Assembly (NCBI RefSeq): GCF_026210795.1
Contig: NC_089442.1
Coordinates: forward strand, 930,001-994,000
From: Rhizophagus irregularis
Lineage: Eukaryota > Glomeromycota > Glomeromycetes > Glomerales > Glomeraceae
DNA length: 64,000 nucleotides
Direction of reading: 5' to 3'
Part shown: positions 6,436 to 61,288 of the stretch, piece by piece
How the letters are laid out: each line of letters starts with the position of its first letter
Position numbering within the stretch: position 1 is the first letter of the stretch
Translations under genes and position numbers: made by a program
Notes under the pieces: model-generated
Database searches by the model: none
What the model saw: the letters and a program-made list of their open reading frames with translations, nothing else
Told to the model about the DNA's origin: nothing

Positions 6436-9400
6436 CTAACTTTGGTCGATCAAACAGTCTAAACATTCAGAATCATGTTTTGGAAGATCTTTTGTAAATG
6501 GGTTAAGTAATCGGGAAGTATAATAAGCTCGCGGATGAGTACTAGTAGTTAGTCTACTATTTTCAATAGATAAAAGATTCGCTTTTCTATATTCATCCGC
6601 TTCATCATTTTGCTCTGTAATTTCCTTGCCTTTTTCTGGATTATAGACGTCAATCAATTTATCTATTTCACTAGCAGTTGGTCTATTTTCTGGATTTGAA
6701 TCCCAACACTTTTTCATTAGATCAATATAAAATTTTGGTACACCTTGCTCATTTATCTCAGGTCTTATCCCATCACATATATTTAATGCTAAATATTGAT
6801 CATGAGCACAATCATTAAAAGGTTGTCTTCCGGTTGCCACAAAATACATAATCATACCAAAACTATATATATCTGCCGCTTGAGTATATGGTTTGCCTCT
6901 TAGTATTTCAGGAGCCATATAAGGCATAACTCCGTAAACTCTTGTTTCATCCATATTACCAACTTCTCCACATAATCCCATATCTGAAATACATACATTA
7001 TTTACGAAATGCATAGTATTATAAGCACATTCAGATAACATTAGTATATTTCCCGTATGAAAATCACGATGAACCATTTTAATTTCATGAATTTTTTCAA
7101 GGCCTTTAATAATATTTCTTAATATATATAATCTTTCAAACCAATACCAATCTTTCGATACATCTTTATAATTTTCAAAATTTCCTTCATTTGCATATTG
7201 AAGAACTATAATATAATCTTTAGTAGCTGGATTTTGAGATATTCCATATATTTTAAGAATTCCACCACTATTAAAAGGATTATTATCAATAGGGTTAGAA
7301 TATGAAGTAGAGTACGCCTTAACCTATTAGTAAAATTAGAAAATGAAAACATTATTATTTAGAATTGTTTAATTAGATGCAAAAGAAAATATATACCTCA
7401 CTTAAAAAGTTCCTAGTAATATTTTGTGAATTATGCAATCTTTTTAGGGCAACCTTTTGATTAGGCATCCTATCCCATTCCCTTTTTTCCTTATTATATT
7501 TTAATGGACCATCAATCCATATTGCTAGATTTACTGTTGCAAAACCACCTGGGAAACAATAAAGATATCAGGAAATTTAGTTTTGAAGAAACTTATAATT
7601 TATAAGATTAAAAAAATTAAAGGTGTAGTACCTTTGCCTATTTCTTTAATATCATTAAACTGGTTATATGGTATCCACTCAATTATTATATCATTCCAGC
7701 TTCTAATCGCTTATTGCATTGTTTGAATGAAATTATCAATTTTTTCATTTCCACTGGTCCAATTTGTAAAATTTTGTTTTAAATTATCTATGTGACATGG
7801 ATTACACCATTTGTAACTTAGATCTTTCGCATTTGCATTTGCATACGTTTTACCACATTTTTCACAGTAACTATCTTGAAAAACCAAAATATAATCTTTT
7901 GTATCTGGATCTTGAGATATCCCATAAATTCTAATGTTAGATTTATCATTTTTATTAATAGAATATAATTTAACCTGTTAAATATAACAATAGGGATTAA
8001 TATAATCTATATAAAAATTATGTTTAAATTGGATTACAAAGAAATAAAATTTATATTACCTCATTTAAAAGTTCTATGGTATTATTTTGAGAATTATGTA
8101 AACACTTTAAGGCAACTTTTTTGTAAAAGTTTCTTTTTAATATATAGCCATAGTTATATCCACATAATGGCCCATCAGTCCATATTGCTGAACGTACTGT
8201 AGTAAAGTCATCGATGTGTATTTCCTTGATATCATTAAATTGGTTATATGGTATCCATTCAAATATTACATCATTATGACTCTTAATATTTAATTGCATT
8301 TCTTGGATAAATTCATCAACTTTTTTATTTCCACTGGTCCATGTTGTAAAATTATATTTTAAATTATTTATATAACATGTTTTACACCATCCATATGTAA
8401 TATATTTATAACCACATTTTTGACAATAGTTATTAAATTTATAAACAATAATATAGTCTTCAGTAGTTGGGTTTTGAGATATCCCACATATTTCATTTTT
8501 ATTGATAGATGATTTAACCTTTAAGTAAAAAAAAAAATAATATTAATATGAGTACCCAAATTGAATTATAAAGAAATTAGAAATTTCCTACCTCATTAAA
8601 AAATTCGTTGGTAATGTCTCGTGAATTGTAAAAACGTTTCAACATAACTTTGTTATCAGGAATTTTTATCAATCCTACTTTACCACTATTATAATATAAT
8701 GTACCGTCCTTCCATATTGCTGAATAAAGTTCAGCAAAATCATCTTTGCCTATTTCATTGATATTCTTAAATTTGTCATATGATATCCATTCAATTATTC
8801 TGTCACTGTATGTTTTAATTTTTAATTGACCTTCTTGAATAATCTCATCAATCTTTTCATTTCCGCTAGTCCAGTTTGCAAAATTTTTCTTTAACACGCT
8901 TATTTGACATGGTTTACACCATTTATCAGATATATTTGTAAATGCTCCAGCACAGTCTTTACAATAACTACCATCTTGATGTACTATAATATATTCTTTT
9001 GTATCTGGATTTTGAGATACCCCACATAATGTAGGAAAATTAAATCTATAATTTAAAAATAATTTAAGCTGTTAAATAACGTAGCACAAAAAATTAGTAT
9101 GATAATATAATTATTAAATTGAATTACAAAGAAATAAAATCTTCACAGTACCTCATTTAAGAATTCATTGATATTATTTTGAGAATTATATAAGTACTTT
9201 AATATAACTTTTTCATTAGGGATCCTTTCTTGTTCCTTTTTATTTTTACCATGATATTCTAATGGGCCATTTATCCATACTGCTGTATATATTGTAGTAA
9301 TATCATCATTACCTATTTTTTTTATATCATTAAACTGGTTATATGGTATCCATTCAACAATCCTATCATTGCTTGATTCAATTTTTAATTGCATTTCTTG

Positions 9401-15947: not shown

Positions 15948-18900
15948 ATGTTATCTCAAGACGATTTTGTATGTAAATATTGTGGTAAATTATATACGGA
16001 GAGATATGGTAAGTGGTGCAAACCATGCCAAATAGATAATTTAAGAAATAATTTTAAAAACTGGACCAGTGGAAACGAAAAAATTGATGAATTAATTCAA
16101 GAAATGCAATTAAAAATTAATCATGATTATGATACAATAGTTGAATGGATACCATATAATCAATTTAAAGACATCAAAGAAATAGGCAGAGATGATTCCA
16201 CTGCACTATATTCAGCAATATGGATAGATGGCCCATTAGAATATAATAGATATAGTAGTAATAAAAAGGAATGGATAAAGAAGCCTAATAAAAAAGTTTC
16301 TTTAAAGTGTTTATATAATTCACAAAGTATCACCAATGAATTTTTAAATGAGGTATGAAAATTTAAATTCTTTGTAATTTAATTTTTAAAGTAGTACTTT
16401 TATTATAATTACTTTTCACGTATATAAATGTTTTATTAATAGGTCAATTCATATACTATTAAAACCCACGAAAAAGATATTTTTAAAATATATGGAATAA
16501 CCCAAAATCCAGAAACAAAAGATTATATTATAGTATTTCAATATGATTATTGCGAATACTGTGGCAAAATATATACAAATATGTGTAAAATTTGTCTATG
16601 TTTTATTAAAAGTGATTGGACCAGCGGAAATGAAAAAATTGATGAATTCATCCAAGAAATGCAATTAGCAAATGTTAGTAAACATGGTACATTTTTTGAA
16701 TGGATACCTTATATCCGGTTTAATGATATTAAGCAAATAGGCAAAGATGATTCTACTACATTATTATATTCAGCAATATGGATGGATGGGCCATTAGAAT
16801 ATAAACATGATACAAGAAAGCCATGGAAAAGAGTACCTAATGAGAAAGTTGTATTAAAGTGGTTGTGTAATTCACAAAGTATTGTCAATGAATTTTTAAA
16901 TGAGGTATGAAATTCTATTTTCTTTTTTGTAATTCAATAATTTCTTCTGTAATTTAATTTTTAAAAATACTTGTTTATTATAATATTGTTTTAACAGGCT
17001 AAATTACATATTGATAGATATAATATGATGAATGATATTCCAAAAATATATGGAATAACCCAAAATCCAGATACAAATGATTATATTATGGTATTTCAAG
17101 ATGATTATTGCAAATACTGTGGCAAAGTATATACATATAAGAACTGTACATTCTGTACGCCATGTCAAATAAATAAATTAAAACAAAATTTTACAAGCTG
17201 GACCAGTGGAAATGAAAAAATTGATGAACTCATTCAAGAAATGCAATTGAAAATTGACCCTTATCATAACACAATGATAATAGTCGAATGGATACCTTAT
17301 AACCAGTTTATTGAAATTAAAGAATTAAATAAGAATAGTTCTGGTACACTATATTCAGCAATATGGATGGATGGTCCATTAAAATATGATACTTCTAAAA
17401 TAATGTGGGAAAGAGTGCCCAATAAAGAAGTTATTTTGAAATATCAATCACAAAATATTATCAATAAATTTTTAAATGAGGTATAAAATTTTAATTTTGT
17501 GTAGCTTAATTTGAGTACTTCAATAACATTTTATATATTTAACAGATTAAATCATATACTTTTCATAATTATTATAATGATGGAATATATGGAATATCCC
17601 AAGATCCAGTTATAAAAGATTATATTATAGTGTCATATATAGATAATTATTGTAAAACCTGTGGTGAGATATATATAGGTAGGAGAAGATGGTGTATGTT
17701 ATGTCAAGTAAATATTTTAAAAGAAAATTTTGCAAAGTGGACTAGTGGAAATGAAAAAATTGATAATTTTATTCAAAAAATGCAATTAAAAATTAGTAAA
17801 TTTGATGATACAATAGTTGAATGGATACCATATGACCAGTTAAATTATATTAAAGAAATAGGAAAAGGTGGGTTTGCCACAGTATATTCAGCAATATGGA
17901 TGGATGGTCCATTAAGATATGACTATAATAAAAAGGAATATAAAAGGGAACCTAATAAAGAAGTTGTTTTAAAATGTTTAAATAATTCACAAAATATTAC
18001 TGATGAATTTTTAAGTGAGGTATGAATTTATCTTTAAATTAACTAATCTTTTACAATATAATAACCTTTTATTTTTATTAGGTTAAAAATTACTTTATTA
18101 ACAATGATAAACATATTCTTCAAATATATGGAATATCACAAAATCCAAATACAAAAGATTATATTATGATTCTTCAATATGCAAAGAATGGAAATTTTGA
18201 TAATTATATTAATGATATTATAAATTGGTTTTGGTTTGAAAGATTGATAACATTAAAAAATATTATTGAAGGTCTAAAAAAAATTCATGAAAATAAAATG
18301 GTTCATCGTGATTTTCATACTGGAAATATATTATTAGCATCATTTAATAACTCAACATATGCACTTTCTGGCAATTGTAAAAGTGACATATATATTTCAG
18401 ATATGGGATTATGTGGAGAAGTTAGTAATATAGATCAAACAAAAATTTATGGAGTTATGCCTTTTGTAGCACCTGAAGTATTGAAAGGAAAACCTTATAC
18501 TCAAGCAGCAGATATATATAGTTTTGGTATGATTATGTATTTTGTAGCAACTACGAAACAACCTTTTGCCAATTGTGCTCATGATAATATTTTAGTATTA
18601 AAGATATGTAATGGAATTAGACCTGAAATAAATGAAAAGGAAGCTCCAAACTGTTATATTGACTTAATGAAAAGGTGTTGGGATTCAAATCCAGATAATA
18701 GGCCAAATGCTATTGAAGTAAGTGAATTGATTGAATTATTTTGTAAATCTTGCAATGCATCAGAAGATATGATAGAAGATGAGAAAATTGGGAAACAATT
18801 TGAGGAAGCAGAAGAATATAGAAAAGCAAATCTTTTATCAATCAAAAATAGCAAATTAACTACTCAAAATTCACAAGCTTGTTATACTTCTCGACTTCTT

Positions 18901-19070
18901 AATCCATTTACCGAAGATCTTTCAAAATATGATGATATTAATAATAATTCAGTAGAAATTTTTGATTTTACGAAGTATGTTATGTCTTTTTTTTTTTTAC
19001 TTATGAGATATATGTTAAATATTATTTATTTTGTAGGATATCAATAGAAGATGAAAGTAAAGATAAATAG
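15948..19070 (+). CDS. Serial zinc-ribbon + kinase N-lobe array protein with complete terminal kinase domain
   Basis: Six exons, 15948-16352, 16443-16904, 16998-17480, 17546-18019, 18082-18974 and 19037-19070, join in frame to 916 residues. Four modules of about 150 residues each carry a ribbon (CxxCGKxYT...CxxC; module two irregular), WTSGNEKID, EWIPYxQF, a YSAIWMDGP strand, VxLK and NEFLNEV. Modules one to three have a broken glycine loop (GRDDSTA, GKDDSTT, NKNSSGT); module four has GKGGFATVY. Exon 5 supplies the rest of the kinase: VHRDFHTGN, SDMGLCG (DMG for DFG), APEVLKG, DIYSFGMIMYF and a RLLNPF tail. The internal introns are phase 0, so each internal exon is one duplicable unit. The first ATG corresponds to the M of an internal IMVFQ motif, so the array may have lost its original 5' end. 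Likely a tyrosine-kinase-like (TKL) signalling kinase; the role of the extra N-lobes is unknown. Confidence 0.88.
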
Positions 19071-38725: not shown

Positions 38726-41700
38726 ATGGCTCACAAAGGTAAAAGACACAATACATGAACATTTAATACAAATTAGCATTATTCTAAAATTTTAATCAAA
38801 TTTCAACAGTTTCAAGTAGTACCAAGGAATCTAAAGGTAACTATAATGATATTAAACAATATAAAATATTAAAAAATTATTTGTAAATGATACCATAATT
38901 ATAATAATGTAACTTTTACATTAATTTAAACTAACTATGTTCTTATTTAATAATATTATATTAAATAATTTAGCTCGTAAGTTAATAGTTATCTTATAAT
39001 TGAATAATAACGGAATTAACTTATTTTTGTTATATTTCATATAATTAAATAATTCATTTAATAATTAATAATACTATAGTTGGTAAGTTATTTGTTATTT
39101 AAATCATTAGTTTTTTACTTTATTTTACATAACATTGAAATATCTAAATTTTTGTTTAAATAATTATTAATTATTAATAATATTACAGATGGTAAGTTAT
39201 AATAATTATTGGTATTATATTTATTCGTTTAATATTTTATACAACTCAACTAATTATATATTTTCATTTAAATGATTAGATTGTAAGTGATATATTTAAT
39301 TTACAGTATGTTTTTATATTATGCTAATATTTAACTAATTAAATAATTAATAATACTACAGGGTGTAAGTTATATGTTATCAAATATTTCTATTATTTAT
39401 ATAATTTAAACTAACTAAAATCATTTATTTGAAAATTATTTGGTAAATTCTTTAGTTGGTAAGTTATAAGTAATTTACTAAATTTTATTAATATAATATT
39501 TACATATAGTTTAAAACTAATAAATTTTCTATTTAAAAATTGGAATTTATTTAGAACGTAAGTTATAAATTATTTATTTAATTCTACTATTGCATATTTT
39601 CATATAATTTGAACTAATCAAATTCTTTATTTATTAAATATATAGGGAGTAAGTTATTTATTATTTAATTTCATTATTACTTAATAATATTTATAATAAT
39701 TTAAACTAACATTTAAAATTTATTTAATAATATAGAATGTAAGTTATTTATTTAATTCTATTATTGCATATTTATATATAAATTGCACTAACTAAATTCT
39801 TTATTCAAAAAAATCATTTATTAATATAGTTGGTAAGTTATTTATTTAATTCTATTATTATATATTTATAATATATTTACATATAATTTAAATTAACTAA
39901 ATTCTTAATTACACAATAATATAGTCCGTAAGTTATTTATTTAATTTCATTATTCATATTAAAATATATATATGCATATAACAATAATTTAACTAACTAA
40001 ATTTTTTATTTATTTAATAATATAGTTCGTAAGTTATTTACCTAATTCTATTATTACATATTATAATATATTTGCATATCAACTAAATTTTTTTATTTAA
40101 AAAATTATTTGTAAATTATTTAGAACGTAAGTTATAAGTTACTTACTATTTAATTCTATTATTACATATTTTAAGATACTTATATAATTTAACTAATTAA
40201 TTTCTTTATTAAAACAATTATTAATAATATATAGCTGGTAAGTTACTTATTTAATTCTAATATATATAATATTTAAATATAATTTTAACTAACTAAATTC
40301 TTGATTAATTTAATAATATAGTGTGTAAGTTACTTATTTAATTCCATTATTATATACATATATATAATATTTACATATAATACAACCTAACAATTCTTTA
40401 TTTGAAATTATTTAATAATATAGCTCGTAAGTTACTTATTTTATTCTATTATTACATATTCATATAATATTTATATACGATTTAACTAAATAAATTCTTT
40501 ATTATTTAATAATATAGTTCGTAAGTTATTTGTTTAATTCTATTATTGCATATTTATAAAATACGTGCATATAATTTAGACTAACATAATTCTAAATTAT
40601 TTAATAATATAGGGGGTGAGTTAATATTTAATTTTATTATTACATATTTTACATAATATATATATAAATTTATATATATGATTTAAACTAATTATAATTT
40701 TTTAAATTAATGCAGGAAGTAAGTTATTTATAAATTTATTTAACCGTACAGTATATAATACTCATATGTTAATTACAACTAAAACTACTTTATTTATAAA
40801 AAATTATTTAACATTATAGGGAGTAAGTTATTTATTTAATTTTATTATTATAATGGTTATATATAATTTAAACTAACTAAATTCTTTATTTAAAAATTAT
40901 TTAATATAGTTCGTATGTTATTTAGATTATTACATATTTATATAATATTTGCATATAATTTAAACTAATTAAATTTTTTATTTAAAAAACTGTTTGATTA
41001 TAATTTCTTTAGTTGGTAAGTTACAAGTTATATATTTAATTCTATTACTATAACGTATTTATAAATAATTTGAGCTAACTAAATTCTTTATTTATAACAT
41101 AGGGGGTAAGTAATTTATTATTACATATTTATATAATATTGTATATAAGCTGAGCTAACCAAATTCTATATTAAAAAAATTTAATAATATAGGGGGTAAG
41201 TTTTTTTTAATTCTATTGTCATAATATTTGCGTTTAATTTTTGGATTGACTAAATTCTTTATTTAAAAAATTGTTTAATATAGCTCGTAAGTTATTTTTT
41301 TAATTCTATTATCACATCTTTATAAAAATGTATTTGTATAATTTAAACTAGCTAATTCTTTATTTTTGGTGATTACTTTTAGTTAGTAAGTTATAAGTCA
41401 TTTATTTAATTCTATCGCATATTTGTATAATATTTGCATATTATTTAAATTAAACAAAATTCTTTTATTAAAAAATTATTTGGTAATTTCTTTTAGTTGG
41501 TAGGTTATAAATTATTTATTGAATTTTGTTATTACATATTATAATATATTTATATGTATATTAACTAATTAAATTCTTTATTTAAAATATTATTTAATAA
41601 TATAGGAGGTGAGTTATTTAATTTTATTATTACTTATTTATATAATATTTACATTAATTTAAACTAACTAATTTCTTTATTTAATAGATTGTAAGTTACA

Positions 41701-42071
41701 AATTATTCATTTTATTCTATTATTACATATTTATATAATATTTACATACAATTTAAACTAACTAAATTCTTTTATTTAATAATATGCTATAGCATGTGAG
41801 TTATTAGTTATTTCCATTGTTTTATTTATATAATGTTTATTTCAGTTATAATTTTAGTTAACTGAATTCTTTATTTGTTACTTTAGTTGGTAAGTTATTA
41901 ATTATGGGTTATTATAAATGTATATTTATACAGAAACTAAGTTTATATATATTCGACTATTAAATCCTAATTAAATTTTAGAGTAAGTGTGATATTATTA
42001 TTACCATTTTTTTTATAATTTTAAATTTTATATTAAATAATTTAAACTTCAATATATTCAAATTTATATAG
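38726..42071 (+). other. Array of 31 three-base microexons and one one-base exon between intron-like repeats (5' part of the kinase gene)
   Basis: Two normal leader exons, 38726-38738 (ATG start) and 38810-38836, give MAHKVSSSTKESK in phase 1. Then come 31 exact triplets between an acceptor and a donor, starting at 38974, 39080, 39189, 39280, 39362, 39456, 39555, 39646, 39736, 39830, 39925, 40026, 40124, 40235, 40322, 40424, 40518, 40613, 40716, 40820, 40910, 41013, 41103, 41193, 41284, 41383, 41497, 41606, 41688, 41793 and 41887, and a single A at 41982. Introns are 79-111 bases (the first of the array 137), mostly with a CTAAC-like branch motif 25-50 bases before TAG. Donors are GTAAGT in 26 of 31, otherwise GTGAGT, GTATGT or GTAGGT. 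The joined triplets read ALDDWFERK ... ALIGDSF without a stop and enter the kinase exon at 42072 in frame. The alternative is a satellite with splice-like motifs that is not spliced. Confidence 0.6.
38977..41981 (+). repeat. Tandem intron-like satellite, about 31 units of 80-115 bp
   Basis: The consensus unit starts GTAAGTTATTTATTTAATTC, continues TATTATTACATATTTATATA, then an ATTTAAACTAACTAAATTC segment, TTTATTTAAAAATTATTT and AATAATATAG. Two subfamilies are visible: one with a long GTAAGTTATAAGTTATTT start preceded by GGTAATTTCTTTTAG (for example at 39456, 41013, 41383 and 41497), the other with the AATAATATAG end. The three bases between units vary freely, while the flanking acceptor and donor are nearly invariant. 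Confidence 0.9.
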
Positions 42072-43459
42072 ATTTGGAAAAAGTGGAAATACGATTATTG
42101 ATGAATTTATTTCTGAAAAAAGATTAAAATGGATTCCTTATAATAAATTTAAAAATGTTGAATATCTTGATAAAGGAGGATTTGGTGTTATATATAAAGC
42201 TATTTGGTTAGGTAATAATGATGAAAATAGAGATGTTGTTCTTAAATGTCATGAGAATTTAAATGACAATTTAAATGAATTTTTAAATGAAGTATGATAA
42301 TTTATTCTTATTTATTTTTTTAAAAAAAATTATAATTTATTTTATCCTAATGTATTATTGTTATTTAATTTATAGTGGAGATTTCATGAAAGTTGTTTAG
42401 ATTCAAATGACATTATTAAATTCTATGGATTTACAAAAAATCCAGATACTTCGAATTATATGGTTGTATTGGATTATGCAAACAAAGGTAATTTAAGAGG
42501 AAATTTAACAAAAATAATCAAAAATGATTGGAAACAAAAATTACATATGTTGAATGATATTATTTCTGGTCTTGATAAGATACATAAACAAAATCTTATT
42601 CATTGTGATTTTCATGATGGTAATATTTTAAATCATAATGTTATAAATGAGGATAAAATTTATATTAGTGATTTAGGATTATGTCGACCTGCAAAATCAT
42701 TTTTGAAAAAATATGATATTTATGGTGTTGTACCATTTATGGCACCTGAAATTTTAAGAGGCAATTCTCATACTCCAGCTAGTGATATATATAGTTTTTC
42801 TATGATCATGTGGGAATTTACATCTGGAGTATCACCATTTAGTAATAGAGAACATGATATTCAACTTAGTTTAAGTATTTGTAAAGGTGAACGTCCTGAA
42901 ATTATTCAAAATACTCCGCAATGTTATGTAGATTTGATGAAAAAGTGTTGGAATGAAGATCCATTAAAAAGGCCAACTTCTGAAGAAGTTTCAAATATTA
43001 TTGAAGAATGGATTTATCTTCCTTTTGAAAAAGAAATCAAAGATATTAGTGAAGAATTAAAACACAATGTTATGGAATTTATAAATGCACCAATTTGGCA
43101 TAATGATCTTGATACTGAATCTCATCCACAAGCACATTATACAAGTCGCTTACTTGATTTCAATAGTAAAAAATTGAATGAAAATCTTGAAACTGAAGAT
43201 TCACAAGCTAGTGTAAATGTGAATGAATTGTTAGTAAGTGATAACTTGAATGAATATATAATTAAAGATTTGAAGTCTGAAGATTCACAAGCTAGTGTAA
43301 ATGTGAATGAAGTGCTAGTAAGTGATAACTTGAATGATTATATAATTAAAGATTTGAAGTCATTAGGTATGTTATATAATATATATAAAAAATTAATTAT
43401 TTATATGAAGTTAATTTTATTTAATTAATTATTTATATATTAAAACAGATGAAAATTAA
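42072..43459 (+). CDS. TKL-like protein kinase (kinase exons)
   Basis: Exons 42072-42291, 42376-43366 and 43449-43459 form the kinase; with the upstream leader and microexons the protein would be 451 residues. It begins FGKSGNTIIDEFI, then WIPYNKFKNVEYLDKGGFGV (intact glycine loop), VVLK (catalytic lysine), YGFTKNPDTSNYMVV, IHCDFHDGN (HCD for HRD, aspartate kept), SDLGLC (DLG for DFG) and MAPEILRG. The C-lobe ends KCWNEDPLKRPT. The tail has the RLLDFNSKKLNE motif typical of fungal relatives, followed by two 28-residue direct copies (EDSQASVNVNE...) encoded by an 84-bp tandem duplication (43195-43362). The last intron (43367-43448) adds DEN-stop, the better of two possible ends. HCD rather than HRD may reduce activity but is common outside typical Ser/Thr kinases. 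Confidence 0.88.
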
Positions 43460-51194: not shown

Positions 51195-51690
51195 CCATCG
51201 CTCCTTTTCGTCTCCCATCACTTCTTCTCGTCTCTCATCACTCCTTTTCGTCTCCCATCATTTCTTTTTGTTTCTCATCACTTCTTTTCGTCTCTCATCA
51301 CTTCTTTTCGTCTCCCATCACTCCTTTTCGTCTCCCATCATTTCTTTTTGTCTCTCATCATTTCTTTTCGTCTCCCATCACTCCTCTTCGTCTCCCATCA
51401 CGTTTTTTCATCTCTCATCACTCCTCTTCACCTTCTCATCACTTCTTTTCGTCTCCCATCACTTCTTTTCGTCTCCCATCACTTCTTTTAGTCTCCCATC
51501 ATTTCTTTTTGTCTCTCATCACTTCTTTTCGTCCCCCATCACTTCTTTTCGTCTCCCATCACTCCTTTTCATCTTCCCATCATTTCTTTTTGTCTCTCAT
51601 CACTTCTTTTCGTCTCCCATCACTCCTCTTCGTCTCCATCACTCTTTCTCATCTCCCATCATGTCCTATTTCTCCTTTTTGTTTCCTATC
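51195..51690. repeat. 20-bp minisatellite TCTCCCATCACTTCTTTTCG
   Basis: About 24 copies of a 20-base unit (occasionally 19 or 21) with T/C variation. All three plus frames stay open because the unit lacks stop triplets on this strand and its length is not a multiple of three; this is not evidence for a gene. The complementary array lies at 59040-59420. Confidence 0.92.
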
Positions 51691-52983: not shown

Positions 52984-55324
52984 CTAATCTATTTTGAGCT
53001 TCACTCCTTGTTCAGCTGATTTTTTGTACCAATAAATAGCTTTATCTAAATTCTTAGTAATTTCTTCTTCATATTCATACATGTTAGCAAGATTACATTG
53101 AGCTAAACTGTTTCCTAAATCTGCTGCCTTTTGATATAATTCAAATGCTTTTTTCTTATCAGTATCAGTTCCAATTCCATGTTGATAGCAATATCCTAAA
53201 CCATTTATTCCAGATGAATTTCCTAAATCTGCTGCCTTTTGATATAATTCAAATGCTTTTTTATTATCAATATCAGTTCCAATTCCATCTTGATAACAAT
53301 ATCCCAAATTATTTATTCCATATGAATTTCCTAAGTCTGCAGCCTTTTGATATAATTTATATGCTTTTATCTTATCAATATCAGTTCCAATTCCACATTG
53401 ATAACAATATCCTAAACCATTTATTCCAAATGAATTTCCTAATTCTGCTGCCTTTTGATATAATTTATATGCTTTTTTCTTATTAATATCAGTTCCAATT
53501 CCATATTGATAGCAATATCCTAAACCATTTATTCCAGATGAATTTCCTAAATCTGCTGCCTTTTGATATAATTCAAATGCTTTTTCATTATCAATATCAG
53601 TTCCAATTCCATTTAGATAACAATATCCTAAACTGCACATTCCAGATGAATTTCCTAAGTCTGTTGCCTTTTGATATAATTCAAATGCTTTTGGCTCATT
53701 AATACTAATTCCAAGTCCAAGATAATTCAAATCTCCAAGTAAGGCAAGAGAATTCGAATCATTTTGATTATTTAATAATAAATTATTAAATTCTTGTAAA
53801 GTTAGATTACGGCTATTAAGATAAGTTAGAATTTTTTGTTTACCTACTTCAATATTATCAAAATTAATATTAATCATATCATTAACTATTGTATCAAAGT
53901 TAATCTCAAATTGGTTACTTGATGACATCGAAGATTCTATTTCTTTTGTATTCATCGTATTGAAGTTTTGAATAACTTGAGACAAATCTCCAGGTAATGA
54001 ATCAATATTTTTAGAAATTTCACCATCTAAAATTGGCTGCTGATGATTAGATGATTGTGTAATTTTATTATCATTAAATAAATGAAAGTCTTTGATAATT
54101 ATATTTTCTTTTTTTATAATTTCTTTTAATTTATCAAACACTTGGTTGATAAATGGACGATTATCAGGTTCAGTATTCCAACAATCTACAAAAAATATAT
54201 ATTAATTGAAATTTGTATTATTATTTTTAAATCATAGGTTTAAATAGTATTTACCAGTATAAATTTTTATATATTCTTCAGGTGTATCAGGAATGGGTGT
54301 CTCTCTAAGACCTTGTAAAATTTCCATGGCCAAACCGAGATCGTTCAATTCATTACAAAAAGGTGGTCGCCCACTAGAAATTTCCCATAAGAGTATACCA
54401 ATACTGTAAACATCACTCTTCTCATTTAATGAGTATACTTTTTGCTGGTTATTGTAACTATTTCTTTTTCTATTGAATATTTTTGGATCAACATAAGCAA
54501 TCATTCCAAATACTTTTGATTGAAGGCTGGATGATTCTTCAATCCTTTTAGAAAGTCCAAAATCGGCCAACTTAACAGTATTCTGATGAACTAATATATT
54601 ATTTGAGTGCTAATATTAAGTATAAAAGATTAAACTAAGATAAATGGGCATTAAATAAAAATAATTATAATAAATCATAAAATTGATTAATTACCAAATC
54701 ACGGTGCACGATTCCTTCACCATGTAAGCATGATACTGCACAAACCAGTTGAAATGCAAGACTAAATTTATCTTTCCAAGTAAGATTTTCGAAATTTTCT
54801 TTTAAATAATCTCTAAGTGTTCCACCGTCAGCATACTCTATTACCAACGAATATTCTTTGATTTGATTTTCTTTTAAAAAGAAAAACACACAAGTTAATT
54901 AATGATTATATGTTAAAAAATGATTATTGAAAACTTATCATATTCCTACTGAAAGTTGTTACGCCATAAAAACGGATAACATTATCATAAAAGTCAACTT
55001 CACGATGATGTTGAATCTGAATAAATAATAAATATATATATATTAGAAATGCAAATATTATAATAATTGTATTGATATTATAATTACCTCACGAACAATT
55101 GCTTTAATTGCAGCATCATTTAAATTATAAAAATATTTAAGTGCACAACATTTATGAGAATCCTTCCAATCTGCACGATAAACTTTTCCGAAGCCTCCAG
55201 AACCAATTTCTTGAAGATTATAAAATTGGCTAAATTCATAAAATTTAATAAGTTTTTTAGAAATTGCTTCTTCTATCCAATTACACTCATTTGAATTATT
55301 AATAAGTTCAGTGTTATTAGACAT
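52984..55324 (-). CDS. Protein kinase with C-terminal Sel1 repeats
   Basis: Five minus-strand exons, 55324-55088, 55016-54950, 54870-54695, 54609-54255 and 54185-52984, join to 678 residues. The start MSNNTELINN was preferred over an upstream in-frame ATG. The kinase is complete: IGSGGFGKVYRADW, CALKYF, HREVDFYDNVIRFYG, VHRDLHSNN, ADFGLSKR, DVYSIGILLWEISSGRPPF. A linker of about 130 residues follows, then about seven Sel1 repeats of 36 residues (AFELYQKAADLGNSSGINGL, GYCYQ-GIGTD) from about 53720 to 53000. The repeats are nearly identical at the DNA level (108-bp period), implying recent expansion or gene conversion. Kinase-Sel1 fusions are a hallmark of arbuscular mycorrhizal fungi; Sel1 repeats are protein-binding scaffolds. 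Looks functional. Confidence 0.93.
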
Positions 55325-56919: not shown

Positions 56920-57310
56920 CATTTTACCTGTTTATGCTTGATTTTCATCTGTCCCGTGCTTGATATTTATCTGTATGTGCTTGATATTTTTATCTGTTCA
57001 TGCTTGATGTTTATCTATCACGTGCTTGATATTTTTATCTGTTCATGCTTGATGTTTATCTGTACATGCTTGATGTTTTATCTGTATGTGCTTGATGTTT
57101 TATCTGTACGTGTTTGATGTTTATCTGTACGTGCTTGATATTTATCTGTACGTGCTTGATGGTTTTATCTGTACGTGCTTGATGGTTTTATCCGACCATG
57201 CTTGACATTTTTATCCGTCCATGCTTTATGTTTTTATCCATCTGTGCTTGATATTTTTGTCCGTCTGTGCTTGATGTTTTTGTCCAACTGTGTTTGATTT
57301 AATCCAACTA
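56920..57310. repeat. Left-arm tandem repeat, TGCTTGATGTTTATCTGTACG
   Basis: About 17-18 copies of a 20-24-base unit; the mirror block on the right arm is at about 60600-61040 with reverse-complement units. Open frames in these blocks arise from the repeat. Confidence 0.85.
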
Positions 57311-57419
57311 TGCTCAATAATTTTATCTTTGTCAAAAATTAGTTTCTTTGTCAGCACAGGGTTGATATATTGTTGGTCACATGTTTTAAGTTTAGCGTAG
57401 TTTTAAAAAAATTTTTTTT

Positions 57420-58400
57420 TTTTTATTGGCTTTTTTTTATAAACAAATTTTGTAGAGAATTTTATTTTTAATATAGGCAAAGGCTTAGTTTGATAGAATT
57501 TCTTTGGGAATTTTTTTAATAAGATTTTTTTGATAAAAAATTTCGTTAGAAAATTTTTTTCATTGATAGGAACATTTCTGAGTTTTTTTTTTTGATGATA
57601 ATTTCGTTAAAAATTTTTATTTGATAGAAATTTTATTGGAGAATTTTTTTTGATAAGATTTTTTTTTTGACATATACTTAACAATTTTTTGTGACAGGAA
57701 AAATTTTATTGAGAATTTCTTTTTTTTTTTGCAGAAAATTATTTGAAGAATTTTTTTAATAGGGAAGATTTTTTTTTGATAGATAATTTCGTTACTAGAA
57801 AATTTTTTTAACAAGTGAGATTTTTTTTTGATAGAGAATTTCGTTAAGAATTTTTTTTTAATAGGAGGGAGTTTTCCTTGATAAAGAATTCTTTTGGGAA
57901 TTTTTTTTAATAAGTGAAAGTATTTTTTGACGGAGAATTTTATTAGAGAATTTTTTTTTTTTTTGATAGAAATTTCATCATAGAATTTTTTTTTTAAATA
58001 GGTAAGATTTTTTTTTTTTATAGATCATTTCGTTAATAATTTTTTTAACAGGAGAGATTTTTTTTTTTGATAGATCATTTCGTTAATAATTTTTTTAATA
58101 GGAGATTTTTTTTTTTGATAGAAAATTTCGGTAAAGAATTTTTTTTTTAATAGGGAAAATGTATTTTTTGATGGAAGAATTTCGTTAGAAATTTTTCTTA
58201 ATCAGGGATATTTTTTTTTGATTGAGAATTTCATTAGAGAATTGTTGGTTGAAAAGTTTTTTTATTTTTTTGATGGAGAATTTTGTTAGAAGTCTCAATA
58301 GAAAATTTTATTGAAAATAGTTTTTTTTTAATAAGGGTATCGAGAATTTTGGCTTGAAATTTTTTTTTTTAATAAAGAATTTCATTAGAGATCTTTTTTT
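57420..58400. repeat. Left-arm degenerate repeat with T-runs
   Basis: About 16 units of 55-70 bases with GATAGAGAATTTCGTTA-like and AATAGGGAAGATTTTTTTT-like parts. Mirrored as A-rich units at about 59490-60430. Confidence 0.75.
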
Positions 58401-59039: not shown

Positions 59040-59420
59040 GAAATAGGACATGATGAGAGATGAAAAGGAGTGATGGAAGACGAAAAGAAGTGATGGGTGA
59101 CAAAGAGGAGTGATGGGAGATAAAAAAAAAGAAGTGATGGGAAGATTAAGAGGAGTGATGGGAGACGAAAAGAAGTGATGGGAAGATTAAGAGGAGTAAT
59201 GGGAGACGAAAAGAAGTGATGAGAAGATTAAGAGAAGTGATAGGAGACGAAAGGGAGCGATGGGAGACGAAAAAGAGTGATGGGAAACGAAAAGGAGTGA
59301 TAGGAGACGAAGAGGAGTGATGGGAGATGAAAAGAAGCGATGGGAGACGAAAAGGAGTGATGGGAGACGAAAAGGAGCGATGGAAGATTAAAAGAAGTGA
59401 TGGGAAGATGAAGAGGAGTA
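59040..59420. repeat. 20-bp minisatellite GTGATGGGAGACGAAAAGAA in the foldback centre
   Basis: About 18 copies; the unit is the reverse complement of the array at 51195-51690. It lies in the central spacer close to the right arm. Confidence 0.9.
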
Positions 59421-61288
59421 AAAATTTATTAAAATTGTAAAATTTAATAAAAAATTTTCCAATAAATTTTCAATCAATTTTTTATAAAAAAAAGATCTCT
59501 AATGAAATTCTTTATTAAAAAAAAAAATTTCAAGCCAAAATTCTCGATACCCTTATTAAAAAAAACTATTTTCAATAAAATTTTCTATTGAGACTTCTAA
59601 CAAAATTCTCCATCAAAAAAATAAAAAGGCTTTTCAACCAACAATTCTCTAATAAAATTCTCAATCAAAAAAAATAACCCTGATTAAGAAAAATTTCTAA
59701 CGAAAATCTTCCATCAAAAAATACATTTTCCCTATTAAAAAAAAATTCAAAGATTCTTACCTATTAAAAAAAAGTTCTCAAAAGAATTTCTATAAAAAAA
59801 AAACTTCCTTCCTAGTTCCTATTAAAAAAAAAATTCTTTACCGAAATTTTCTATCAAAAAAAAAATCTCCTGTTAAAAAAATTATTAACGAAATGATCTA
59901 TCAAAAAAAAAAAATCTTACCTATTAAAAAAAAAATTCTATGATGAAATTTCTATCAAAAAAAAAAAAAATTCTCTAATAAAATTCTCCGTCAAAAATAC
60001 TATTAAAAAAAATTCCCAAAAGAATTCTTTATCAAGGAAAACTCCCTCCTATTAAAAAAAAATTCTTAACGAAATTCTCTATCAAAAAAAAATCTCACTT
60101 GTTAAAAAAATTTTCTAGTAACGAAATTATCTATCAAAAAAAAAATCTTCCCTATTAAAAAAATTCTTCAAATAATTTTCTACAAAAAAAAAAATTCTCA
60201 ATTAATTCTCTATCAAAAAAAAAAATCTCTCCTGTTAAAAAAAAAAATTGTTCCAACAAATTAAGTATATGTCAAAAAAAAAATCTTATTAAAAAAAATT
60301 CTCCGAAATTATCATCAAAAAAAAAAACTCAGAAATGTCCCTATCAATGAAAAAAATTTTCTAACGAAATTTTTTATCAAAAAAAATCTTATTAAAAAAT
60401 TCCCAAAGAAATTCTACCAAACAAAGCCTTTGCCTATATTAAAAATAAAAATTCTCTACAAAATTTGTTTATAAAAAAAAGCCAATAAAAAAAAAAATTT
60501 TTTTTAAAACTACGCTAAACTTAAAAACATGTGACCGATAATATATCAACCCTGTGCTGACAAAGAAACTAATTTTTGACAAAGATAAAATTATCGAACA
60601 TAGTTGGATTAAATCAAACACAGTTGGACAAAAACTTCAAGCACAGACGGACAAAAATATCAAGCACAGATGGATAAAAACATAAAGCACAGATGGATAA
60701 AAACATAAAGCACGGACGGATAAAAATGTCAAGCATGGTCAGATAAAACTATCAAGCACGTACAGATAAAACCATCAAGCACGTACATAAATATCAAGCA
60801 CGTACAGATAAACATCAAGCACGGTACAGATAAAACATCAAGCACGTACAGATAAAACATCAAGCACGTACAGATAAACATCAAGCATGAACAGATAAAA
60901 ATATCAAGCACGTGATAGATAAACATCAAGCATGAACAGATAAAAATATCAAACACGTACAGATAAATATCAAGCACGGACAGATGAATATCAAGCATGA
61001 ACAGGTAAAATGTCAGGCACGGTGTAACATTTTGTCAATCCATGCTTGATTTTTCAACCGCCCAATGCCTGATAGTTTAGTCCAGCTCGGCTTGCCATAA
61101 GTGAATTTTAAATCGGGTCGGTACTAACAATTTTAATAACCCGTGACCCGCATGACCCAACCCGTCGGGTCGGGTTATTCATTTCCTTGACTCGGGTTTT
61201 GACCCGAATTAGACTCGGATAATCATTAAAATCACTGATCACATATTGATTACGCGTTAATATTAATTAATTTTATATAATTTTGTTA

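Follow-up and report, generated by a model that had tools for sequence, protein, structure and literature searches.

Several described systems come close to the gene reported here, the nearest being micro-exon genes and isolated exons of 1-3 nucleotides (nt). In the micro-exon genes (MEGs) of Schistosoma the coding sequence lies mostly in short exons and the internal exons are divisible by three in length; in recursive splicing, closely apposed AG and GT sites are used stepwise and no residue is left in the messenger RNA (mRNA). We examined a predicted kinase gene of Rhizophagus irregularis in a 64-kb stretch of DNA, hereafter the window (C14:930001-994000, forward strand; positions are those of the window unless a contig is named), from a genome of 146.7 Mb in 32 contigs. 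The gene is predicted to have 37 coding exons, including 31 consecutive internal exons of 3 nt and one of 1 nt. We put the probability of this reading as a whole, in which the tiny exons are spliced in and translated and the arrays duplicate and then diverge, at roughly 0.87.

MEGs, in the part of the source available, have many exons of 3-81 bp, form a variable gene family and encode secreted proteins (PMC10526429). The R. irregularis arrays resemble them in placing many short exons between introns and in belonging to a variable gene family. They differ in that nearly all array exons have the one length of 3 nt, with up to 42 triplets in parsed chains, that the introns are tandem relatives of about 90 nt whereas MEG introns reach 5 kb in the same account, and that the product is a kinase (PMC10526429). 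The coding sequence of the window gene does not lie mostly in short exons: its 32 tiny exons hold 94 of 1356 coding nt, and 35 of its 37 exons are 27 nt or shorter. Lengths divisible by three were found for 31 of 31 window triplets and for 684 of 722 tiny exons in a strict parse of 30 loci, those not divisible being mostly the 30 closing 1-nt exons.

A frame-keeping 1-nt exon resembling the one described here is needed for the frame of Arabidopsis APC11 (PMC4674806), and in Fusarium CYP621A it likewise supplies the central base of a codon (PMC12940212). Unlike the present case, each is a lone exon of a single gene or set of orthologues, and the abstracts mention neither arrays nor 3-nt neighbours. 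The 3-nt microexons of Drosophila homothorax, alternatively spliced (PMC7392893), and of mouse Ncam (PMC8042270) are described in the available parts of those sources as single, not as repeated units as here. The proposed stepwise use of AG and GT sites resembles recursive splicing; unlike it, each step here should leave 3 nt. A recursive-like site of zero length, AG followed directly by GTAAGT, was seen once, within the array of one paralogue (L044, C4:4731293-4739811), and may be a naturally occurring recursive-splice site amid 3-nt exons. In the literature searched we found no account of arrays of single-codon exons, and we know of no counterpart for the uniform 3-nt tandem unit or for its spread through a gene family. 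By these two features the arrays could be called categorically new; a stricter judge could call them an extreme variant of micro-exon genes.

All features of the window gene lie on the + strand. Leader exon 1 (38726-38738) opens with ATG, encodes MAHK plus 1 nt and has the donor GTAAAA; paralogue proteins begin MAHSNDKV or MAHSNNKV. Leader exon 2 (38810-38836) encodes VSSSTKESK plus 1 nt and ends in a phase 1 donor. KVSSSTKE recurs in database proteins P0088 and P0091 and KVVSSSTKE in P0105, and paralogue L043 has an identical GAATCTAAAG followed by the GT donor. By eye, MAHKVSSSTKE is unlike a signal peptide. The 3-nt exons follow in the order CTC (38974-38976), TTG (39080-39082), ATG (39189-39191), ATT (39280-39282), GGT (39362-39364), TTG (39456-39458), AAC (39555-39557), GGA (39646-39648), AAT (39736-39738), TTG (39830-39832), TCC (39925-39927), TTC (40026-40028), AAC (40124-40126), CTG (40235-40237), TGT (40322-40324), CTC (40424-40426), TTC (40518-40520), GGG (40613-40615), GAA (40716-40718), GGA (40820-40822), TTC (40910-40912), TTG (41013-41015), GGG (41103-41105), GGG (41193-41195), CTC (41284-41286), TTA (41383-41385), TTG (41497-41499), GAG (41606-41608), ATT (41688-41690), CAT (41793-41795) and TTG (41887-41889). 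ATT GGT, the fourth and fifth, is common at the starts of many paralogue arrays. The final G of the last triplet opens a Glu codon that runs over three exons and has as its middle base the 1-nt exon A at 41982. The first kinase exon (42072-42291) begins A + TTT GGA AAA AGT (FGKSGN..) and gives the Pkinase / PK_Tyr_Ser-Thr match; it is followed by the main kinase exon with the C-terminal tail (42376-43366) and the last coding exon (43449-43459), which ends ..DEN stop. The LKSLDEN end is also found in P0001 and P0077. The 33 introns from leader to kinase exon (38837-42071) range from 79 to 137 nt in length. Between triplets the range is 79-111 nt, and the introns there are related tandem repeats, mostly with the donor GTAAGTTA.

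Joining this chain of two leader exons, 31 triplets, the 1-nt exon and three kinase-side exons gave an open reading frame (ORF) of 1356 nt and 451 amino acids with no internal stop. The kinase domain of the predicted protein scored 139.8 bits with PF07714 and 126.8 bits with PF00069, above the curated cut-off. The protein is a TKL-like kinase; its translation contains, by eye, the motifs VVLK, HCDFHDGN and DLG, which we take to be the catalytic Lys, HxD and DxG, and its closest database proteins are from Rhizophagus diaphanus and R. irregularis. The C-terminal exon also holds an 84-bp in-frame repeat in two copies, 96% alike (43193-43361); P0077 has a single copy, its sequence being nearly the same in other respects when compared by eye.

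The gene had been singled out in a preliminary description, made from the DNA alone, as 31 tandem three-base units between 38974 and 41889, GTAAGT following 26 of them, with a single base before the donor of the next unit, ATG leader exons in front and a kinase exon behind. Each of these elements was found again at its position. Every one of the 31 units is an AG, exactly 3 bases and a GT donor (GTAAGT n=26, GTGAGT n=3, GTATGT n=1, GTAGGT n=1). AG-N3-GTRAGT matched 31 times on both strands of the window, 29 of them within the array, compared with 1.54 ± 1.16 matches (largest 6) in 100 dinucleotide shuffles; a control motif with 4 bases in place of 3 had 3 matches in the window (1.52 expected) and none in the array. 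The claim that splicing 38836 directly to 42072 leads to an early stop was reproduced, and inserting the 1-nt exon alone brought the frame back, as had been proposed for the single A. The frame therefore holds with any number of triplets. The triplets have 45% G+C and the intron bodies of the array 11%, and the triplet columns rank among the most variable in the aligned units. The joined triplets yielded the 31 sense codons predicted for the leader phase; since 25% of shuffled orders of the same triplets are likewise stop-free, the window alone is no proof of frame, which comes from the family.

The preliminary description took this for a single unusual gene. The array structure is real, but it is a family trait: the predicted array-bearing kinases number at least several dozen genes. 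The first kinase exon had at least 151 matches in the genome. We sampled the 20 best paralogues with 7 kb of upstream sequence and the next nine (L030-L038) with 1.5 kb, and 28 of these 29 near paralogues carry 3-nt units. Arrays were present in 19 of the 20 best, their parsed chains holding between 9 and 42 triplets, and 3-nt units in all nine further loci. In L050 the parse stops at 9 triplets where the motif count is 31, and in L033 the parsed chain holds two triplets and the motif count gives six. L060, added to the sample for another reason, likewise has 3-nt units. No triplets were found in L058, the remaining one of the 20, and none of eight kinase loci from the top of a wider Pkinase list showed such units on either strand. 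A paralogue with the same peptide encoded in one exon, proposed earlier as a check, was not found; the peptide differs from gene to gene.

Exon length was almost uniform throughout the family. Genome-wide, a 30-base unit motif occurred 932 times with a 3-nt exon, 8 times with 2 nt and once with 4 nt, and never in a backwards control. The strict parse of the 30 loci recovered 680 tiny exons of 3 nt, 30 of 1 nt, 4 of 2 nt, 1 of 4 nt, 4 of 6 nt, 2 of 10 nt and 1 of 23 nt; the 10-nt and 23-nt exons are parse ambiguities, and the 6-nt ones probably are. The chain parser used a donor matrix trained on the window array and a length penalty that favours short exons generally, not 3 nt specifically; the genome-wide counts are independent of it. 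The unit motif captures 135 of the 680 sampled units, which gives a rough genome total of 4,700 three-base exons from a sample biased toward near relatives. Among 100 listed places of the 932, 17 clusters were seen by eye, 14 of them just upstream of a listed kinase exon on the same strand; one cluster lies at C2:1347448-1355376. Three single places (C1:1937443, C1:7918337 and C3:3804406) have no listed kinase exon nearby. At L059 (C1:1937400-1939200) there are two lone triplet units, TTT and ATC, and no kinase exon in the 1.8 kb examined; it is maybe a relic array. A stricter pattern of the closing pair, the 1-nt exon plus the start of the kinase exon, had 85 exact matches elsewhere in the genome; the window gene itself fails this pattern by intron length.

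These counts bear on the reading that the units are an intronic or 5' satellite with splice-like motifs and that transcription or translation begins near the kinase exon. The units are indeed tandem repeats, and in the models P0001 and P0077 and in several OCT59 proteins the start lies within the kinase exon or shortly ahead of it. A satellite, however, has no reason to prefer 3 bases over 2 or 4 (932:8:1), and it leaves unexplained the triplets of 45% G+C amid introns of 11%, the 1-nt exon found in 30 of 30 loci, and an avoidance of stop codons confined to neighbouring triplets in a single phase. We rejected this highly improbable reading on those four grounds.

The stop avoidance was measured at junction codons, which in phase 1, the phase of the leader, combine the third base of a triplet with the first two bases of the triplet after it. 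The counts exclude junctions across introns longer than 135 nt and junctions beside exons of other lengths. For the first 20 arrays, adjacent phase 1 junctions gave 0 stops in 520, compared with 16.1 ± 3.1 after shuffling. With all loci pooled there was 1 in 618 against 18.5 ± 3.4, a value reached in 0 of 2000 shuffles, and counting each distinct triplet pair once left 1 in 284 against 15.8 ± 2.8. Of two phase 1 stops in a looser tally, one came from a misparsed 10-nt exon in L051 and the other from a GC-donor exon of L040 that the parse had missed. Phase 2 is stop-ridden (89/520 in the first 20 arrays), and reversing the triplet order produced 11 stops in 520 in these arrays and 3 in 98 in nine held-out loci. 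Stop depletion at neighbours only indicates that selection sees adjacent triplets joined, in order, in phase 1.

Junctions that skip triplets, which share the ancestry of the adjacent ones and serve as controls, behaved differently. With one triplet skipped (lag 2) there were 11 stops in 560 against 16.4 expected, as low as in 6.4% of shuffles; lag 3 gave 12 in 508 against 14.3 and lag 4 gave 16 in 462 against 12.6. Clear depletion is thus limited to adjacent junctions, the pattern looked for in a constitutive array, which argues against frequent skipping of triplets, though skipping may occur now and then. It lowers the standing of a combinatorial array, in which symmetric triplets would be carried in different subsets by different mRNAs and each gene would make many variants of the segment. 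Such use would keep the frame with any number of triplets provided that the 1-nt exon is included, and alternative splicing is reported, in the part of the source available, for a schistosome micro-exon gene (PMC10399815); skip-one junctions are not clearly depleted of stops, and we consider this reading unlikely. Very probably every triplet is included in the mRNA, in the sequence of the array, and read by the ribosome in the frame shared by leader and kinase.

Several observations independent of the junctions agree with phase 1. Leader motifs written after reading the loci already contain the phase and so are no test; the openness of frames was compared instead. Inspection by eye gave a leader end for 16 of 21 loci, none being found in L047, L050, L051, L052 and L058. 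Of these 16 leaders, 15 are open longest in the frame leaving one base over; the frame leaving two bases over was closed within 4 codons in all 16. In L049 phase 0 is nearly as open, with 89 codons compared with 97 in phase 1. The 1-nt exon ahead of the kinase exon is an A in 30 of 30 loci read, and the codon formed by the last triplet's G, this A and the first base of the kinase exon is GAA in 27 of 30 and GAG in 1 of 30; of the two loci without the Glu codon, L032 is misparsed there and L058 has no triplet. In L060 a 78-nt exon with ordinary AG and GTAAGT boundaries comes after the triplets. This exon is open in phase 1 only, has stops in phases 0 and 2, and would encode IFINGDKSSGLFKPAVKSLDDRDDG, which agrees with database protein P0105 at 24 of 25 whole codons. 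The codon likelihood relative to kinase codon use was -6.10 for phase 1 and -6.99 and -7.67 for the others. Together with the paralogues, the exact length and the stop avoidance, these results bear out the earlier reading of coding 3-nt exons and a 1-nt phase restorer.

The same results were weighed for phase 0, in which each triplet would be a codon and the last exon would be AGTAA in place of A, giving the ..LSKFGKSGN of several models. P0004, P0007, P0008, P0028, P0040, P0043 and P0060 look as if read that way, and 3 of 676 triplets are stop codons where three-position base frequencies predict about 10 in 571 (first set). Stop triplets are nevertheless not avoided within their classes, TGA being 2 of 10 TGN and TAA 1 of 2 TAN triplets. 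Phase 0 is long-open in some leaders, but most favour phase 1; the donor that it requires, GTGTTA or GTAATA, looks poor, and kinase codon use fits phase 1 better. Given also the stops in the L060 exon, we rejected phase 0, which is scarcely credible.

If the triplets are coding in phase 1, each intron would be recognised as a self-sufficient unit with a GTAAGT donor of near-perfect U1 pairing, often a branch-like CTAAY motif, and an AG. GTAAGT is the donor of 620 of 680 units. CTAAY was present in 492 of 657 introns, its last occurrence starting a median of 36 nt before the intron end; 483 of these introns have no AG between the motif and the final AG, and ACTAAC occurred in 200 of 657 compared with 8 in shuffled introns. 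Strong donors and branch-like motifs would suit intron definition and stepwise removal. As splice sites 3 nt apart are not easily occupied together, removal is probably sequential, the growing 5' exon gaining 3 nt at each step like the ratchet of recursive splicing. A segment of 31 residues (ALDDWFERKFVLQPVSLRGRILGGALIGDSF) is predicted to result, closed by the three-exon Glu and placed between the conserved leader and the kinase domain.

Arrays would lengthen by tandem duplication of the 3-nt exon with its intron, adding whole residues in frame, and the triplets would then diverge fast and give each kinase its own variable segment. Single-triplet runs such as ATC ATC ATC ATC ATC were found in arrays, as were repeated blocks (ATG AGG AGT GGT ATC in L055; CTG CAT ATG ATC ATC in L054), and unit type is linked to triplet class, all of which indicates that exon and intron were duplicated together. 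In unit pairs with identical 80-nt flanks (n=152 non-independent pairs, 14 loci), divergence per site was 17.5% for triplets and 1.0% for the outer intron. Because the choice of identical flanks also depresses the value for the outer intron, this 17-fold difference is an upper view and about twofold is safer: with 1, 2 and 4 flank mismatches the values were 13.8% compared with 6.0%, 23.0% with 14.5% and 36.5% with 15.0%, and the excess over 1 to 4 mismatches was about 1.6- to 2.4-fold. These figures come from ungapped flanks only, so pairs with flank insertions or deletions drop out; gapped alignments were set aside because gaps absorbed mismatches and overstated triplet divergence at low flank distance.

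Divergence of triplets between near-identical flanks could also arise if near-identical, introner-like introns had been inserted at every third base of an ordinary exon. Some units with identical 80-nt flanks do hold different triplets, and L060 has an ordinary 78-nt exon in the array. The triplet is identical too, however, in 66% of identical-flank pairs, and the ATC runs, repeated blocks and tie of unit type to triplet class indicate duplication of exon plus intron. We know of no insertion mechanism giving a fixed 3-nt spacing, and regard this reading as very unlikely.

Triplet differences were highest at the third base (0.270) and at the first (0.158), which in phase 1 are codon positions 1 and 2, and lowest at the wobble base (0.099). 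The pattern fits diversifying selection, and concerted evolution of the introns could add to the contrast between triplet and intron. The predicted segments are rich in Asp, Phe, Trp, Arg and Tyr (D, F, W, R, Y). We tentatively suggest, at somewhat less than even odds, that the arrays are a diversification device in which duplication, loss or mutation of a cassette alters one residue with the frame kept, setting a private, fast-changing segment before a conserved kinase. Such segments would perhaps be recognition surfaces of a large set of receptor-like kinases.

A number of points weigh against the proposed structure. Splicing of the arrays is predicted from DNA sequence. A database search with 15 concatenated phase 1 segments matched no protein, and a short-peptide comparison with 105 hits showed, in its best 50 rows, the FGKSGN end and scattered short matches only. 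The window leader is open over 20 codons in phase 0 compared with 16 in phase 1, which was chosen by the homology of VSSSTKE. The nine held-out loci alone gave 1 stop in 98 against 2.3 expected, which is not significant. L035 has one phase 1 stop, at the CGT-AAC junction, with no trace of a missed exon; L044 has two 2-nt exons and one 0-nt exon, and L057 exons of 2, 2 and 4 nt, so that in both the frame is lost if all are included. These three may be decaying copies. L058 is a kinase paralogue without triplets. Finally, in the closest R. diaphanus model the protein begins seven residues ahead of FGKSGN, as though this were the translation start.

In the database models found among the 105 hits the arrays are missed or misread. 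Judged by eye, a model has its start at the kinase exon or close to it, goes straight from leader to kinase, or carries apparent phase 0 triplets with an AGTAA last exon. Two models, P0060 (Rhizophagus clarus) and P0091 (R. diaphanus), with MTMMMSKFGNSEN or ..RRISKFQES, resemble phase 0 misreadings. From the R. clarus and R. diaphanus models, the trait may be common to the genus. In a 2023 study of the R. irregularis genome, according to the part of the source available, Nanopore RNA was mapped by minimap2 with a maximum intron of 3000 for expression profiles (PMC10234402). Such mapping would be expected to lose 3-nt exons.

If transcripts confirm the arrays, the spliceosomes of this fungus would link about 30 to 40 three-base exons in a row, and do so accurately, in dozens of genes, which goes well past the single exons of 1 and 3 nt in the examples cited here. 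The arrays would offer natural material for studying the use of opposing splice sites 3 nt apart, the order of intron removal and tolerable error rates. They suggest a route by which a protein segment could be lengthened and varied residue by residue, and that segments of this kind can go missing entirely in standard annotation and read mapping.

Other features were seen in the window. A large inverted repeat (56954-58400 / 59487-60979) consists largely of short AT-rich tandem repeats; in the 25 longest pairs listed, its arms match as complements at 80-97%. An array of (CCATCACTTCTTTTCGTCTC)n lies at 51195-51661, with an inverted copy near 59051-59419. By eye, 6436-7077(-), 18166-19047(+) and 52984-54141(-) comprise two kinase-like ORFs and one Sel1-like-repeat protein with 108-bp DNA repeats.

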